Shown here in pieces: positions 2,493 through 25,065 of a stretch of DNA of 50,022 bases. The DNA comes from Candidatus Iainarchaeum sp. (GTDB taxonomy: Archaea > Iainarchaeota > Iainarchaeia > Iainarchaeales > VGJJ01), in contig JACQJG010000012.1 in the NCBI GenBank assembly GCA_016198125.1, positions 1 to 50,022 of the forward strand, read 5' to 3'. Each line of letters starts with the position of its first letter. The first letter of the stretch is position 1. The translations under genes and the position numbers were made by a program. The notes below the pieces were generated by a model that was not told the DNA's origin, did no database searches, and saw nothing but the letters and a program-made list of their open reading frames with translations.

Positions 2493-3697
2493 AAACCTAA
2501 GGGCTCTGCATTTCCAGTCAAGGATAAAACAATCGTTTTATCTTGACCATCCCATTGTTTTGCTTTCTCAATGGCACCTTTGATTGCATAACATGATTCA
2601 GCAGCTGGTCGAATTCCTTCAACCTCGTAAAATAATCGTTGAAGGTAATCAACCTCTTTTGGATTAAATGAAACCGCTTTTATGTATTTTTCATGAACAA
2701 GCAGTGACAACAGGTGATTTTTTCCGTGATAATTTAATCCACTGGCCCCAAGTTTTCGTGGTTCAAATTGATTGCCAAGCGTATACATTTTGGTACGCGG
2801 CATTAATCCAAGCAAGTCAGGATTTTCATACCGGTATTTCCCTCTAGTAAAACTTGGAACTTCGGCAGACTCTACTGCAATAAAATCGGTTTTGCCCAAA
2901 TAATTCTTCATAAGTGGAAAAACAAAACCAGAAAAACTGCTTCCTCCACCCACAACACCAACTAATGCATCGGGCTCAATCTTTAACTTCCTCAGTTGTA
3001 GTTTCAATTCCTGCCCAATTACAGTGTTATGAAGGGCAGAATAGACTGTTAAACACCCTAATGAAAGCTTATTCGTTTTATTTTTGCTAACATGTTGAAT
3101 GGCTTTGCTTAAACTGGCTGCAATCGTTCCCTTCTTCGTATATATAGGAACAACTGTGGCCCCTAATTGTTTCATATGTCGAACTTTGTCCAGATGCCTT
3201 TCGTAATTTTTCCGTTCCATGTAAATAGTACATGACAAATTGAATGTTTTGCATGCCAATGCCATTCCCAACCCCCAGTTTCCTGGACCCGTGTCCCCAA
3301 TAAACTCTGTTACCCCTTCTTTCTTCGCGTAGTACGCTTGCGCAAAAGATGAATTCAATTTGTAGCTGTTTATCGGGCTCTTATCTTCCCTTTTATAAAA
3401 AATTCTAACAGTATTCAGGCTAAGGCATTTTTCCAGTTTATGCGCCCGAATGACAGGGGTAGGTCGCCACTTCGCGTATAGCTTGCGAATAGGATGCGGA
3501 ATACAAATGAGACTTTTTGTACTATATTCGCCAACACCCAGTTCCTGTTTAGCCAGTTCATTTGGCAATATTGTTCGCAAATCTGCTAAACTCATTTTAT
3601 TATTCGTTTTAGGATCTCGAAGTGGAGGGATGTCAAGACCTAATTCATCACGCAAAAATGGAATGACATTATACCAATGAGTTGGAATTTCCACCAT
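2468..3697 (-). CDS. TrpB2-like PLP-dependent synthase, divergent
   Basis: A 409-residue fold-type II PLP enzyme of the TrpB2 (tryptophan synthase beta-like) group. The alignable blocks are RPTPVIRAHKLEK (78-90), SPINSYKLN with putative PLP lysine K113, the phosphate loop GGGSSFSG, LTVYSALHNTVIGQE, and GIRPAAESCYAI near the C terminus. TrpB2 condenses indole with serine or phosphoserine. Two active-site positions are unusual: the Glu of the ETGAGQ motif is Asp135 (DTGPGNW), and the residue before the PLP lysine is Tyr, not His. Other trp genes are absent here. By eye the gene is more AT-rich than its neighbours, hinting at transfer. The substrate is therefore open, and a different beta-replacement reaction is possible. 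Confidence 0.85.
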   Translation of the reverse strand: MVEIPTHWYNVIPFLRDELGLDIPPLRDPKTNNKMSLADLRTILPNELAKQELGVGEYSTKSLICIPHPIRKLYAKWRPTPVIRAHKLEKCLSLNTVRIFYKREDKSPINSYKLNSSFAQAYYAKKEGVTEFIGDTGPGNWGLGMALACKTFNLSCTIYMERKNYERHLDKVRHMKQLGATVVPIYTKKGTIAASLSKAIQHVSKNKTNKLSLGCLTVYSALHNTVIGQELKLQLRKLKIEPDALVGVVGGGSSFSGFVFPLMKNYLGKTDFIAVESAEVPSFTRGKYRYENPDLLGLMPRTKMYTLGNQFEPRKLGASGLNYHGKNHLLSLLVHEKYIKAVSFNPKEVDYLQRLFYEVEGIRPAAESCYAIKGAIEKAKQWDGQDKTIVLSLTGNAEPLGFQAFPLRA

Positions 3698-3702
3698 ATA
3701 GT

Positions 3703-4989
3703 CTAAACGCCGCCCACGCCGCTTTTCGGTTCGGCGCCATCAAGACCTTCCCCCACGGGCATTTCCCCCAACACTTTAATTACAATGTCTAAATCCTTGT
3801 CTGCAAGCAAGTCAAACACGCGCTGCACGTCAAACGCGTTATTAAAACCCGTTTGGGCCAGGTTGCGTTCAAGCAAGGCCATGCCAATCTTTGCAACGCT
3901 TGCACGCTCTTTTTGCAGTTCACGCAGTTCTTCCATGCGATGCTTAAAACTTTCCATGGAAAAGTGCTTGGACAAAGAAAAAAGGGCCTTCTCCGCATAC
4001 TTGTCGCGCAACGATTCAACACTCACATCTGCGGCACTCAAACCAGTTGACAAGGTTCCAGTCAACTTCAAGCGAATAATGGGCTTCAACTCCAGCGGCG
4101 TTTTAAGGTCCTGTCCAATGGCTTCTTCCACTGCCTGCAATACTTCTTCCGCGGACGCGTTTTTGAAGGAAAACTTGTGATAAAACAACCTGCGTTGCAC
4201 GGGAATTTCATGAAAATCCAGCGCGCGCGTTTGCGTGTCATAAATATAGAATCCTTTGGGCTTCTTTGACTCCAAATTCTTTGCCTGGGTTAAAACGGTG
4301 GAACCCACCACCAACAAGCTCCCCCCCTGCGGCAAATCAGTAACAGAAGTCCAATGCAAGTGCCCATCAATGCACAAGTCAAAACCCGATGGCAAGTCCT
4401 TCAAGCCAATGGTGGCCGTCATGTCATCGTCTACCGGCAAAAACTCTTCAATGGACTGATGCAACACCAAAAGATTATGCGCCCCTTTTTGAGGCACCGG
4501 ATTCCATGCAACCAACGCATCCCTTGCATGCTTTTCAGGAACCCCTGAAAGGCCTTGAATAACCACATGCTCTTCCCCTTTTCTCACTTCCACTGAAGAC
4601 GCGTGCAGGCACGCCAAAAAACCCGCAGACTGCAAAACCTGCAACGCGTTCTTGTAATCCCTTCCCCGGTATTCATGCGTGCCTGCAATGGCCACTACAG
4701 GAATGCCGTGGAACAAAAAAGGAGTTGAATGGCCTTCACGCTGATACTGGGTAATTTTAACTTCCGATGCAGGCGCTTTGTAGAACATGGAAAGAATTTC
4801 GAATGCCTCATGCCATGTTTCCTGGAGCGGAATTTTTTCATCAAAAAAGTCCCCGGGGTGCAGTACGAGATCCGGCTGAAGCCGCCCAATCATTTCCGCG
4901 GCCTGCTTGAATTGGGTGAATGCATCGCCCTCGCGTTCAGTGCGGTGCGCAAAACCCAAGTGCGTGTCAGAAACCAGTGCAATCCTCAT
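3703..4989 (-). CDS. mre11: Mre11-like DNA repair exonuclease
   Basis: A 428-residue calcineurin-like phosphoesterase of the Mre11/SbcD type, which processes DNA ends in double-strand-break repair, normally with Rad50. The metal motifs are in order: DTHLGF (about 8-13), GDFFD, GTHEYRG and DGHLH. Motif III is GTHE rather than the common GNHD. I recall this variant from an archaeal subgroup, so it need not be inactive. The C-terminal part is helical and rich in Glu and Arg (MEELRELQKER), where Mre11 contacts Rad50 coiled coils. The ATG at 4989 is chosen because it starts MRIALVSDTHLG and overlaps the upstream HAD stop by 4 nt. No rad50 or herA/nurA gene is in the window. Confidence 0.85.
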   Translation of the reverse strand: MRIALVSDTHLGFAHRTEREGDAFTQFKQAAEMIGRLQPDLVLHPGDFFDEKIPLQETWHEAFEILSMFYKAPASEVKITQYQREGHSTPFLFHGIPVVAIAGTHEYRGRDYKNALQVLQSAGFLACLHASSVEVRKGEEHVVIQGLSGVPEKHARDALVAWNPVPQKGAHNLLVLHQSIEEFLPVDDDMTATIGLKDLPSGFDLCIDGHLHWTSVTDLPQGGSLLVVGSTVLTQAKNLESKKPKGFYIYDTQTRALDFHEIPVQRRLFYHKFSFKNASAEEVLQAVEEAIGQDLKTPLELKPIIRLKLTGTLSTGLSAADVSVESLRDKYAEKALFSLSKHFSMESFKHRMEELRELQKERASVAKIGMALLERNLAQTGFNNAFDVQRVFDLLADKDLDIVIKVLGEMPVGEGLDGAEPKSGVGGV

Positions 4990-21164: not shown

Positions 21165-21926
21165 ATGGGTTTAAGGCCTGGGCACTGCTACCGGTTACAA
21201 AAAAAGCCTGCATATACGCGCCTTGCAGTCACTGTGCCAGACAGGAATTACATTGGCGCATCCCCTGGAATCAAAACCCATCAATTCAACGTGGGCAACC
21301 CCCTCAAAGACTTTACGCACCTGGTAAACCTGGTCGCAGATGAAAGCGTTCAAATCAGGGACAATTCCATTGAAGCCACACGCCTGATTATCACCAAATT
21401 TCTTTCCCGAAAACTTGGAAAAGAAGGATTCTTCCTCAAAATACGCGTGTACCCGCACATGATTCTACGCGAAAACAAGCAAGCCCAAGGCGCGCATGCA
21501 GACCGCATTCAAAAAGGAATGTCCCACCCCTTTGGAAAACCCGTGGGGCGCGCGGCCAGAGTAAGGCCCGGGCAAGTCCTCATGTCCATTTTGGTGGACA
21601 AAGAAAACATTGAAATTGCAAAAACAGCCATTCTGCGCGCACGCCCGCGCATGACCACCAAGTTGCACGCTGAAATCTCAACAGACGTTCAAAGCATTGG
21701 CACAAAACCGCGCAAGATGACTGAAGAAAAGGTCGAAGAAAAAGCAGAAGAAACAAAAGAAGGCGAAGCGGCAGGTACCGGAGAAGGCGCGGAAGCAGGA
21801 AAAGAAGGCGGAGCCAAAACAGAAACAGGAAAAGAAAACCCTACCGGCAAAGCTCCTGCAGGAAAAGCCCCCGCAGGAAAGGAAGCCGCGCCCAAGAAAG
21901 AAGACAAAAAGGAAAAGAAGAAGTAA
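21165..21926 (+). CDS. rpl10e: large-subunit ribosomal protein L10e (uL16) with charged tail
   Basis: Residues 1-175 are a clear archaeal L10e: MGLRPGHCYR, then VTVPDRNYIGASPGIKTHQFNVGN, FFLKIRVYPHMILRENK, ADRIQKGMSHPFGKPVGRAARVRPGQ. The protein binds 23S rRNA near the peptidyl-transferase centre. After the normal end comes a tail of roughly 75 residues made almost only of Glu, Lys, Gly, Ala, Thr and Pro (EEKVEEKAEETKEG, then GKAPAGKAPAGKEAAPKK), expected to be disordered. Family members usually stop near 170-180 residues. An assembly error is unlikely because the frame is continuous. Confidence 0.93.
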   Translation: MGLRPGHCYRLQKKPAYTRLAVTVPDRNYIGASPGIKTHQFNVGNPLKDFTHLVNLVADESVQIRDNSIEATRLIITKFLSRKLGKEGFFLKIRVYPHMILRENKQAQGAHADRIQKGMSHPFGKPVGRAARVRPGQVLMSILVDKENIEIAKTAILRARPRMTTKLHAEISTDVQSIGTKPRKMTEEKVEEKAEETKEGEAAGTGEGAEAGKEGGAKTETGKENPTGKAPAGKAPAGKEAAPKKEDKKEKKK

Positions 21927-21995
21927 TTCTTTCAGCTTGCACGCATCTGCCAACGCGCACGCATTTAAACCCCACCACCATTCTGTTTAGACGGT

Positions 21996-23996
21996 ATGGA
22001 ATTCAAGAAAAACATTGCATGGCCCAAAGAAATTGGGCGCGACGACCTGCACGCAGTCGGAAAAGAAGCCATGGCTCTTGTGGAAGCCGCCAACAGCGGC
22101 ATCCCCCTTCCCCCTTTTTTTGCGGTAACCGTATACGCGCATAAAACATTTTTGAACCAGAAACTGCTGGGCGCGCGCATGCGCGAACGCCTGAACGAAA
22201 TGCGAATAGAAGACGATGCCAGCGTTCAACAAACGTGCCAGGCCATAAAAGAAATGATGCTTTCTCTGGACCTTCCGCCGCAACTCAAACACGAAATAAA
22301 ATCCGCATACCACAAGCTTGGAGAGAAAAACATTGCATGGCTGTCCGAGGGAACAGACGAACGCGTTACATTGAAAGCATCCAATCCAAGTGACGAAGGG
22401 ACTAACCACTGGAAAAAGGAGAACATTTCAGGAGCCGAATCAGTGGTACAAAACATCAAAGAATGCTGGGCAAGCACGTACTCCCTGGAGGCAGTGCGCG
22501 AGCGCGCTGCAAAACACGTGGAATTTGAAGACAGCGGTAACAGCGTACTTGTGCAACGCCTCCTACAAGGAGAAGTAATGGGAATGATTTATTCACAAGA
22601 CCCTGAAGAGGCTGCGCGCATGCTGCTTGAAGTTCAAAACGCTTCCAGTTCCTCTGAAAATGTTTTTCGTTTTGGCATTGAAAAAGCCAAACTCAAGGTC
22701 ATTGAAAAACCCGCTCAAATGCCCTTCAAATTTGAAGACGCGCTTGCATTGCAACTGGCAGAAGTTGCCAAGCGCGCTGAACAACACTACGGCTTTCCCG
22801 TGCAAATAGAATGGGTGCTTGAAAAGGACAGGGTGTTCGCCCTCCACATCAAACCCCTTAAACTTCCCATTGCACTGCGCACAGATGCAGAGATCATTCT
22901 CCCCCAAGAGGCAAAGCCAACCCCAAACGCGGTCCCTCAGACTATAGAAGAAGAAACCCCCCGTGAGCGCGTCCAAGAAGTAACACACGCCCCCGTGGAA
23001 AACGTGCAACCCCCCCTTGCATTGATTGAAGGACCTGAGGAAAAAACGCCCGACCTTCCCATGACAACCAACACCACTATGACTACGGTTTTTGATGAGC
23101 ACGAAAATGCCATGGAACCCAAAGAAGAAAACCTGAACGCGCCTGAACAGAAAGCACCTCAAGAAGAACTTGAAAAACCGGAAGTAACCGAAAAAATCAC
23201 GCACGACCAAAAAGTGCATGTACACGCATTCCTTGTAGAGCCGCATACTACGCTCATGAAACACCTCCAGGAAGCAGACCAGGTCATTGTTCCAGCAGAA
23301 ACCCTCCTCAAAGAACGAAACATTTCTGGGAGTGAAGTCGAATCCCTTGAAAGCCAACGCGCCCTTGTAGAAGGCCTCAAGCACAGCATGCGCACCCTGG
23401 GAACGTTTTTTCCGCAGAAAACGTTATGGCTGCGAACATGGAATGAAGGGAATGAACTCCAAAACCCGTTGGAACCGCATGGACTGCACCAAGACTTTGC
23501 ACACCCTGAACGATTCAAAAGTCAACTCATTGCAGTAAAAGAACTGCAAGACGAAGGACTTTCCAATGTACACGTCCTCCTGGCAGGAGTTTCAACAAGC
23601 GATGAATTCCAGCAGGCCAAGCAAACCGCCAAAGACCTTGGATTCACCCCTGGAAAAGACCTTAAACTGGGAGGGTGGATTGACACGCCTGCAGGCATTG
23701 GAATCATCCAAGACCTCTTGGCCGAAGGAATGGCATTTGCATGCGTGCCCCTGGAAAGCCTGGCACGGTTAACCATTGGACGAAAAGATATAACCTCTGC
23801 AACCCTCTTGCACCCTTCTCTCATGGGCCAAATAAAATACGCATTGCAGAAATCCAAGGACATGGACACGCCCTTCATGGTATTCCTTCCAACCCAAACA
23901 CCAATCCCTTCGCTCCAATACCTGGCAGACCAGGGCATTGAACACTTTATAGTGCCTGCAAATGATGTGGAGAAAACCATTCAACGCCTTACATGA
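21996..23996 (+). CDS. PEP-synthase-like protein lacking catalytic domains/residues
   Basis: A 666-residue relative of phosphoenolpyruvate synthase. Residues 1-290 follow the ATP-binding domain (GIPLPPFFAVTVYAHKTF, then CWASTYSLEAVRERAA, then VLVQRLLQGEVMGMIYSQDP). Residues 300-400 are an acidic Pro/Glu linker in place of the swivelling phosphohistidine domain; no GG-x-T/S-H motif exists. Residues 400-666 follow the PEP-binding TIM barrel (FKSQLIAVKELQDEGLSNVHVLLAGV). Key residues are altered: VRSSA-ED reads LKASNPSDEG, ETP reads DTP, GTNDLTQ reads PLESLAR, and the CGQ cysteine is absent. It is therefore very probably not an active synthase. It lies between rpl10e and dph2. Confidence 0.8.
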   Translation: MEFKKNIAWPKEIGRDDLHAVGKEAMALVEAANSGIPLPPFFAVTVYAHKTFLNQKLLGARMRERLNEMRIEDDASVQQTCQAIKEMMLSLDLPPQLKHEIKSAYHKLGEKNIAWLSEGTDERVTLKASNPSDEGTNHWKKENISGAESVVQNIKECWASTYSLEAVRERAAKHVEFEDSGNSVLVQRLLQGEVMGMIYSQDPEEAARMLLEVQNASSSSENVFRFGIEKAKLKVIEKPAQMPFKFEDALALQLAEVAKRAEQHYGFPVQIEWVLEKDRVFALHIKPLKLPIALRTDAEIILPQEAKPTPNAVPQTIEEETPRERVQEVTHAPVENVQPPLALIEGPEEKTPDLPMTTNTTMTTVFDEHENAMEPKEENLNAPEQKAPQEELEKPEVTEKITHDQKVHVHAFLVEPHTTLMKHLQEADQVIVPAETLLKERNISGSEVESLESQRALVEGLKHSMRTLGTFFPQKTLWLRTWNEGNELQNPLEPHGLHQDFAHPERFKSQLIAVKELQDEGLSNVHVLLAGVSTSDEFQQAKQTAKDLGFTPGKDLKLGGWIDTPAGIGIIQDLLAEGMAFACVPLESLARLTIGRKDITSATLLHPSLMGQIKYALQKSKDMDTPFMVFLPTQTPIPSLQYLADQGIEHFIVPANDVEKTIQRLT

Positions 23997-24054: not shown

Positions 24055-25065
24055 ATGGAACTTCACTTGGAAGAACTATGGAAAGAAGCCCAAAAACTAA
24101 AACCCCGGCACGCACTCCTACAAATCCCTGAAGGGCTCAAAGCCCAGGCAACGGAAATTGCAGGGTTTTTTGAAGGAAAAGGAGTCACGTGCACGCTGCT
24201 CATGGACCCCTGCTACGGGGCATGCGACCTGGCAGACGACAAAGCCAAAACCCTGGGCGCAGACCTGCTCATTCACTTTGGGCACAGTAAAATGCTCCAC
24301 ACCGGCATGCGCGTGATTTACTGGCCCATTGAATATGAGGTAAAAAAGCAAATGGTTCAAGGGCTTGGCAACGCGCTGTCCACGCTGAAAAAAGAAAAAG
24401 GAATTCACACGTTTGGACTTTATGCCGCCATCCAGTTTTCAGAAAAGTTAAAAGAAATTGCAAAAACGCTTGAAAGTCAAAACCTTCACTGCCTCGTGGG
24501 ACAAGGCGATTTATTTGAAGGCCAACTCCTTGGATGCGATGTAAGCACGCGAAAAACGGTTGAAGAAAAAGCCGATGCTAATGTATATTTTGGCGATGGA
24601 CTGTTTCATGCACTGGCCATTGCATTTGCAAGCACAAAACCAACCTACCTGTATGACCCGTTCACAAACGAATTCAAAAGCCTTGAAAAGGAAAAAGAAA
24701 CCTTCCTGCGCCAGCGGTTTGCATTGATTGCAAAAGCCAAGGATGCAAAAACATTCGGCATTATCCTCAGCACCAAGCGCGGACAGCTGCGAAAAGCATT
24801 GGCCCTTAAATTAAAAGCCCTCGCCGAAAAACATGGGAAAAAAGCCCTGTTGCTGGGCATGGACTACGTAAAACCAGAACACGTGCTGGGCGTTAAAGTG
24901 GATGCGCTCGTGAACACGGCGTGCAGCCGTTTGGCCACAGACGACTGGCTCCACTTCCCAAAGCCCCTGCTCACCCCCCTGGAACTGGAAATCGTGCTCG
25001 GAGAAAAAGACGGAAGCGCGTACCAGTTCGATGAAATAAAACACTATGCGGGAAAAGTGGAGTAG
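24055..25065 (+). CDS. dph2: diphthamide biosynthesis enzyme Dph2
   Basis: A 336-residue archaeal Dph2, the non-canonical radical-SAM [4Fe-4S] enzyme that transfers the 3-amino-3-carboxypropyl group of S-adenosylmethionine to the target His of elongation factor 2. The three cluster cysteines are recognisable, one per domain: DPCYGACDLA (Cys53 or 57), LLGCDV (about 160) and NTACSRLATDDW (about 283). Length and spacing match the family. The ATG at 24055 is the only sensible start. The gene follows the PEP-synthase-like gene on the same strand with a 58-nt gap. Confidence 0.93.
   Translation: MELHLEELWKEAQKLKPRHALLQIPEGLKAQATEIAGFFEGKGVTCTLLMDPCYGACDLADDKAKTLGADLLIHFGHSKMLHTGMRVIYWPIEYEVKKQMVQGLGNALSTLKKEKGIHTFGLYAAIQFSEKLKEIAKTLESQNLHCLVGQGDLFEGQLLGCDVSTRKTVEEKADANVYFGDGLFHALAIAFASTKPTYLYDPFTNEFKSLEKEKETFLRQRFALIAKAKDAKTFGIILSTKRGQLRKALALKLKALAEKHGKKALLLGMDYVKPEHVLGVKVDALVNTACSRLATDDWLHFPKPLLTPLELEIVLGEKDGSAYQFDEIKHYAGKVE

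Follow-up and report, generated by a model that had tools for sequence, protein, structure and literature searches.

PpsA, or PEP synthase, is an enzyme at the pyruvate/PEP branch point. Several relatives depart from it in organization or in role. In the two-component dikinase HpeHI, HpeH supplies the phosphohistidine (His) domain in trans to HpeI (PMC12167813), and VadK is a regulatory kinase derived from PPDK that autophosphorylates on histidine; the latter report also mentions mycobacterial PPDKs without critical motifs (PMC13400623). In rifampin phosphotransferase, Lys22, Arg117 and Thr136 position the ATP phosphates and are required for phosphotransfer, and the metal ligand Glu297 is dispensable (PMC4844700). 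According to a review, the PpsA of Staphylothermus marinus forms a 24-subunit octahedral assembly (PMC8100219).

The gene described here lies in a window of 50,022 nucleotides, the whole stretch of DNA that was analysed, from Candidatus Iainarchaeum sp. (Table 1). The source assembly comprises 846 kb and is 71% complete, and all the evidence on the gene comes from this one sequence of an incomplete genome.

Domain organization and active-site residues

The open reading frame encodes a 666-residue relative of PpsA. Against Pfam, its N-terminal half matched the ATP-binding family PF01326 (PPDK_N) with an E-value of 3.1e-31 and 109 bits, for a cut-off of 27, and neither PF00391 nor PF02896 matched anywhere in the protein (for PF00391, nothing at E ≤ 1). 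The NCBIfam models for PEP synthase gave matches far under their cut-offs, the equivalog TIGR01418 scoring 131 bits against 739.75. A phmmer search of solved structures aligned residues 487–620 with the archaeal PpsA 8a8e (i-Evalue 1.6e-12), and the N-terminal half matched the same structure separately. Six normal PpsAs from the order align with 52–64% identity among themselves, and each shares 25–28% with the window protein, whose C-terminus stops ~20 residues short of the canonical PpsA end. Searching the literature for ‘PEP synthase’ together with pseudoenzyme found nothing.

Table 1. Features of the PpsA-derived gene and its surroundings (positions in the window).
Feature	Position	Strand	Evidence
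PpsA-derived pseudoenzyme gene	21996..23996	+	Open reading frame; PF01326, 109 bits; match to PpsA C-terminal half
Degenerate ATP-grasp (PPDK_N-like) half, residues 1–291	21996..22868	+	PF01326; pLDDT mostly 84–95; Z 28.5 to HpeI (9goj)
Disordered Glu/Pro/Thr-rich linker, residues 292–403, at the place of the phosphohistidine domain	22869..23204	+	pLDDT 24–36; composition; His domain absent from all frames
Degenerate PEP-binding TIM-barrel half, residues 404–666	23205..23993	+	Z 29.8 to 9dae and 27.9 to 8a8e; alignment
rpl10e, upstream neighbour in the conserved order	21165..21926	+	
dph2, downstream neighbour in the conserved order	24055..25065	+	
TATA-like box TTTAAA, possible archaeal promoter	21963..21970	+	About 30 bases upstream of the ATG; putative

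A structure model, built from an alignment of 38 canonical PpsAs and so possibly biased toward the PpsA fold, was confident in both halves and disordered between them. When the model was compared with solved structures by VIA-align, the C-terminal domain of PpsA (9dae) matched over 263 residues with a Z of 29.8, HpeI (9goj) was the best match of the N-terminal half at 28.5, and 8a8e and 2ols (whole PpsA) gave 27.9 and 27.2, respectively; the barrel model is also similar to citrate-lyase-like folds. The PF02896-type barrel of PpsA is thus indicated by the predicted fold and by phmmer, the Pfam profile itself staying silent. Prediction from the single sequence had a mean pLDDT of 43 and did not recover the ATP-grasp half; from residue 418 to 560 of the barrel it gave much the same order of strands and helices at middling confidence, as part of the pattern only. 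Both halves can be recognized from sequence matches as well as from the predicted fold.

The linker of 112 residues contains 20% Glu, 13% Pro and 12.5% Thr and has a net charge of −16. A cryptic His domain was sought by tblastn with canonical His domains in all frames of 22500–23500, and nothing rose above noise, while the positive control, a stand-alone His protein encoded elsewhere in the genome, was found at 2.5e-31 to 6e-35. In the normal PpsAs of this order, the His domain is joined to the barrel by a charged segment of 62–121 residues, and the linker may be this ancestral tether, enriched in Pro, from which the His domain has gone.

The window protein retains 31% of the 162 columns that are conserved in at least 90% of the 38 canonical PpsAs, compared with 94–100% in each of the latter. 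Its landmark motifs have changed from RSSATAED to KASNPSDE, from MIETPA to WIDTPA, from GTNDLTQ to PLESLAR and from CGQ to FLP. At the ATP site, Arg127 is replaced by Lys, the RSSATAED loop combines this change with a deletion, and the lysine of GGKG is displaced by one position; at the Mg/PEP site we find N587E and D588S, and the Cys and Gly of CGQ are gone. Further altered positions are D270Q, Q284H and R433P. By motif, Lys22, Arg117 and Thr136 of rifampin phosphotransferase correspond to the displaced lysine, Lys127 and the deleted stretch, respectively, and the equivalent of Glu297 is kept.

An earlier note on this DNA had proposed that the protein keeps the ATP-binding half and C-terminal barrel in PpsA order, with an acidic Glu/Pro-rich linker replacing the His domain; the profile, phmmer and tblastn searches, the linker composition and the predicted fold all agree with this. 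Its description of a catalytically stripped PEP synthase likewise accords with the aligned residues, most of those expected in the active sites being changed. Its statement that every landmark examined is altered holds for those it named, but some catalytic positions survive: Arg480 (of WxRT), Glu272 (of IEW), Glu435 and Arg170 are retained, and R127K, R286K and E563D are conservative.

Gene order around ppsA

Related genomes of the order (Diapherotrites/Iainarchaeota) have a normal ppsA flanked by rpl10e and dph2, and aRF1 comes farther along. Adjacency was scored when the ppsA C-terminal end and a downstream dph2 shared a strand and were at most 1.5 kb apart. By this measure, ppsA directly precedes dph2 in 36 of the 42 genomes in which both could be placed (one coordinate, that of G004, was taken from gene tables); in 21 genomes rpl10e is found at most 1.5 kb before ppsA, and both adjacencies hold in 17. 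Because the rpl10e/dph2 slot is the ordinary address of ppsA in this order, the window gene is the positional descendant of ppsA. The earlier note had seen in this position a link to translation. The gene order is indeed conserved with the normal ppsA, and an address inherited from ppsA therefore gives a translation role no support.

Three sister genomes, G001–G003 (94, 96 and 86% complete), contain no PPDK_N protein; dph2 comes straight after rpl10e in G001 and G003, and about 0.2 kb separates the two in G002. The gene is thus dispensable nearby. In the 71% complete assembly of the source genome, the window protein is the sole PF01326 protein and PF02896 has no match; its family, too, has no PPDK_N enzyme apart from the window gene. 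Pyruvate kinase was found in one of ten genomes of the order tested.

Some other features of these genes were observed in passing. Six genomes have PpsA open frames of 1200–1650 residues, and in two of them (G034 and G054) ~1.6 kb that looks like an intein-type insertion interrupts the ATP-binding half near query residues 134–143. In five genomes of another family, the Dph2 matches contain one in-frame stop, TGA (TAG in one genome), which may be the gene’s own end read through.

Signs of constraint and possible roles

The window gene contains no stop codons, against about 18 expected under neutral decay, as estimated by mutating a normal ppsA neutrally in silico until its identity had fallen to 45%, roughly the extra divergence of the window gene beyond its relatives. 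In comparisons among genes within the window, its synonymous codon score of 0.115 lies beside 0.148 for rpl10e, 0.137 for dph2 and 0.116 for aRF1, and TATA-like boxes are enriched upstream of 30 genes at the same distance class as the putative box in Table 1. With no stops and housekeeping-like codon usage, the gene is unlikely to be a neutrally decaying pseudogene, and because neutral decay is unlikely, a non-catalytic role is the best remaining reading. To this extent the new structural or regulatory role suggested by the earlier note survives, on the evidence of a single sequence. Single-protein and alignment-based scans of GTDB 220, together with 93 relatives, yielded no ortholog close enough for dN/dS; the best 80 matches of the alignment-based scan were only PpsA-like, at 20–30% identity. 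In a phylogenetic tree the window branch has a length of 6.0, compared with a median of 0.4; a placement for the gene was rejected, the branch being too long and its join with another long row not trusted.

On balance, we think it somewhat probable that the gene encodes a PpsA-derived pseudoenzyme of a single lineage, with a non-catalytic binding or scaffold role and with folded halves kept under selection. The gene descends by position from the ppsA of the rpl10e–dph2 slot; its swivelling His domain has gone, with a flexible acidic linker in its place, and its ATP and PEP sites have eroded. The enzyme would have been given up in this lineage and the two folded halves retained under selection as a non-catalytic protein. 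Such a protein would most likely work by binding, as a rigid ATP-grasp relict and TIM barrel tethered by the disordered acidic linker, and a scaffold, or a sensor of a ligand or partner, is a candidate for its job. The observations above show the descent from ppsA, the loss of the domain and of the sites, the gene order and the signs of constraint in frame and codons; that the protein folds, is expressed and has a partner or ligand to bind is inferred. A bolder version, in which PpsA has become a purely structural or regulatory protein whose two dead folds and acidic tether bind a partner or metabolite, and which is expressed among translation genes and possibly reports the energy or carbon state to them, seems to us distinctly unlikely.

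The same observations have to be weighed against the view that PEP synthesis has been lost in the family and that ppsA, though still an open frame, is eroding under relaxed selection and heading for deletion as in the sister genus. The absence of any PPDK_N protein from G001–G003, the closed rpl10e–dph2 junction in two of them, the long branch and the lack of orthologs in the scans all fit such a relict, but the missing stops and the codon usage do not, nor does the folded pattern still predicted for both halves, and we regard it as rather unlikely. An error of assembly or frame in an ordinary PpsA, or a normal ppsA hidden in the 29% of the genome that is missing, the window gene being a duplicate, is highly improbable: the genome is indeed incomplete, and enolase, found in the sisters, is also absent from the assembled part, but the frame is single and open, divergence is spread over both halves, the other frames hold no His domain, the window gene itself occupies the ppsA position, and sisters at 94–96% completeness lack ppsA.

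Two further explanations would preserve catalysis. Stand-alone PF00391 proteins of ~230–490 residues occur in the source genome (five, on four contigs) and in the sister G003 (about 14, on many contigs), and none was found in G001 or G002. One of the five could provide the window protein with its swivel domain as a separate chain, in the manner of HpeH and HpeI (PMC12167813); HpeI is also the best structural match of the N-terminal half. We nevertheless judge this half of a two-component enzyme very improbable; an intact ATP site and a nearby His-domain partner would be expected of it, but both halves carry changes at the ATP-phosphate, Mg/PEP and catalytic Cys positions, none of the five His proteins lies in the window, and relatives that have a normal PpsA encode stand-alone His proteins as well. 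Alternatively, both pockets might have been rebuilt for another substrate, as in a kinase or lyase, a notion suggested by the four catalytic residues still present, by the likeness of the barrel to citrate-lyase-like folds and by VadK, a PPDK turned regulatory kinase (PMC13400623). VadK, however, needs histidine autophosphorylation, for which the window protein has no domain, and the metal-site Asp/Asn and the Cys have been lost together, so that a new enzyme appears quite improbable.

Comparison with other PpsA-derived proteins

A non-catalytic PpsA derivative would have a partial parallel within the order. Three genomes of another family (G006, G039 and G033) carry an independent degenerate PpsA paralog of 592–717 residues (L177, at 2724–4871, L178 and L179, respectively), with an altered ATP site, a His domain and no PF02896 match; dN/dS between L177 and L178 is 0.053, indicating strong purifying selection. 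Like the window protein, these paralogs derive from PpsA, have an altered ATP site and show a C-terminal half without recognizable PF02896; they differ in keeping the His domain, and G006 and G039 encode a canonical PpsA of another subtype in addition. Together, the window gene and this paralog (dN/dS 0.05) suggest repeated repurposing of PpsA in small-genome archaea. If the fold has been kept, apparently under selection, while the phosphate carrier and active sites were discarded, the window gene would show that a swivelling enzyme of this size can be put to non-catalytic use, and the case shows in any event that inherited gene order can mislead functional guesses.

Among described systems, the window protein has in common with archaeal PpsA (EC 2.7.9.2; TIGR01418) the order of ATP-grasp and barrel, the rpl10e–dph2 slot and the 25–28% identity, but is without the phosphohistidine domain, the final ~20 residues and intact active sites. 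A structural role through a PpsA-like assembly is conceivable by analogy, and the missing C-terminal residues may affect assembly. The protein resembles HpeHI-type dikinases in having an ATP-grasp half without a His domain of its own, but its single chain extends into the C-terminal barrel, and ATP-site residues are lost. With VadK, which shows that precedents for dikinase relatives leaving central metabolism are already known (PMC13400623), it would share the position of a pyruvate dikinase relative outside central metabolism, but VadK autophosphorylates on histidine, whereas the window protein has no His domain.
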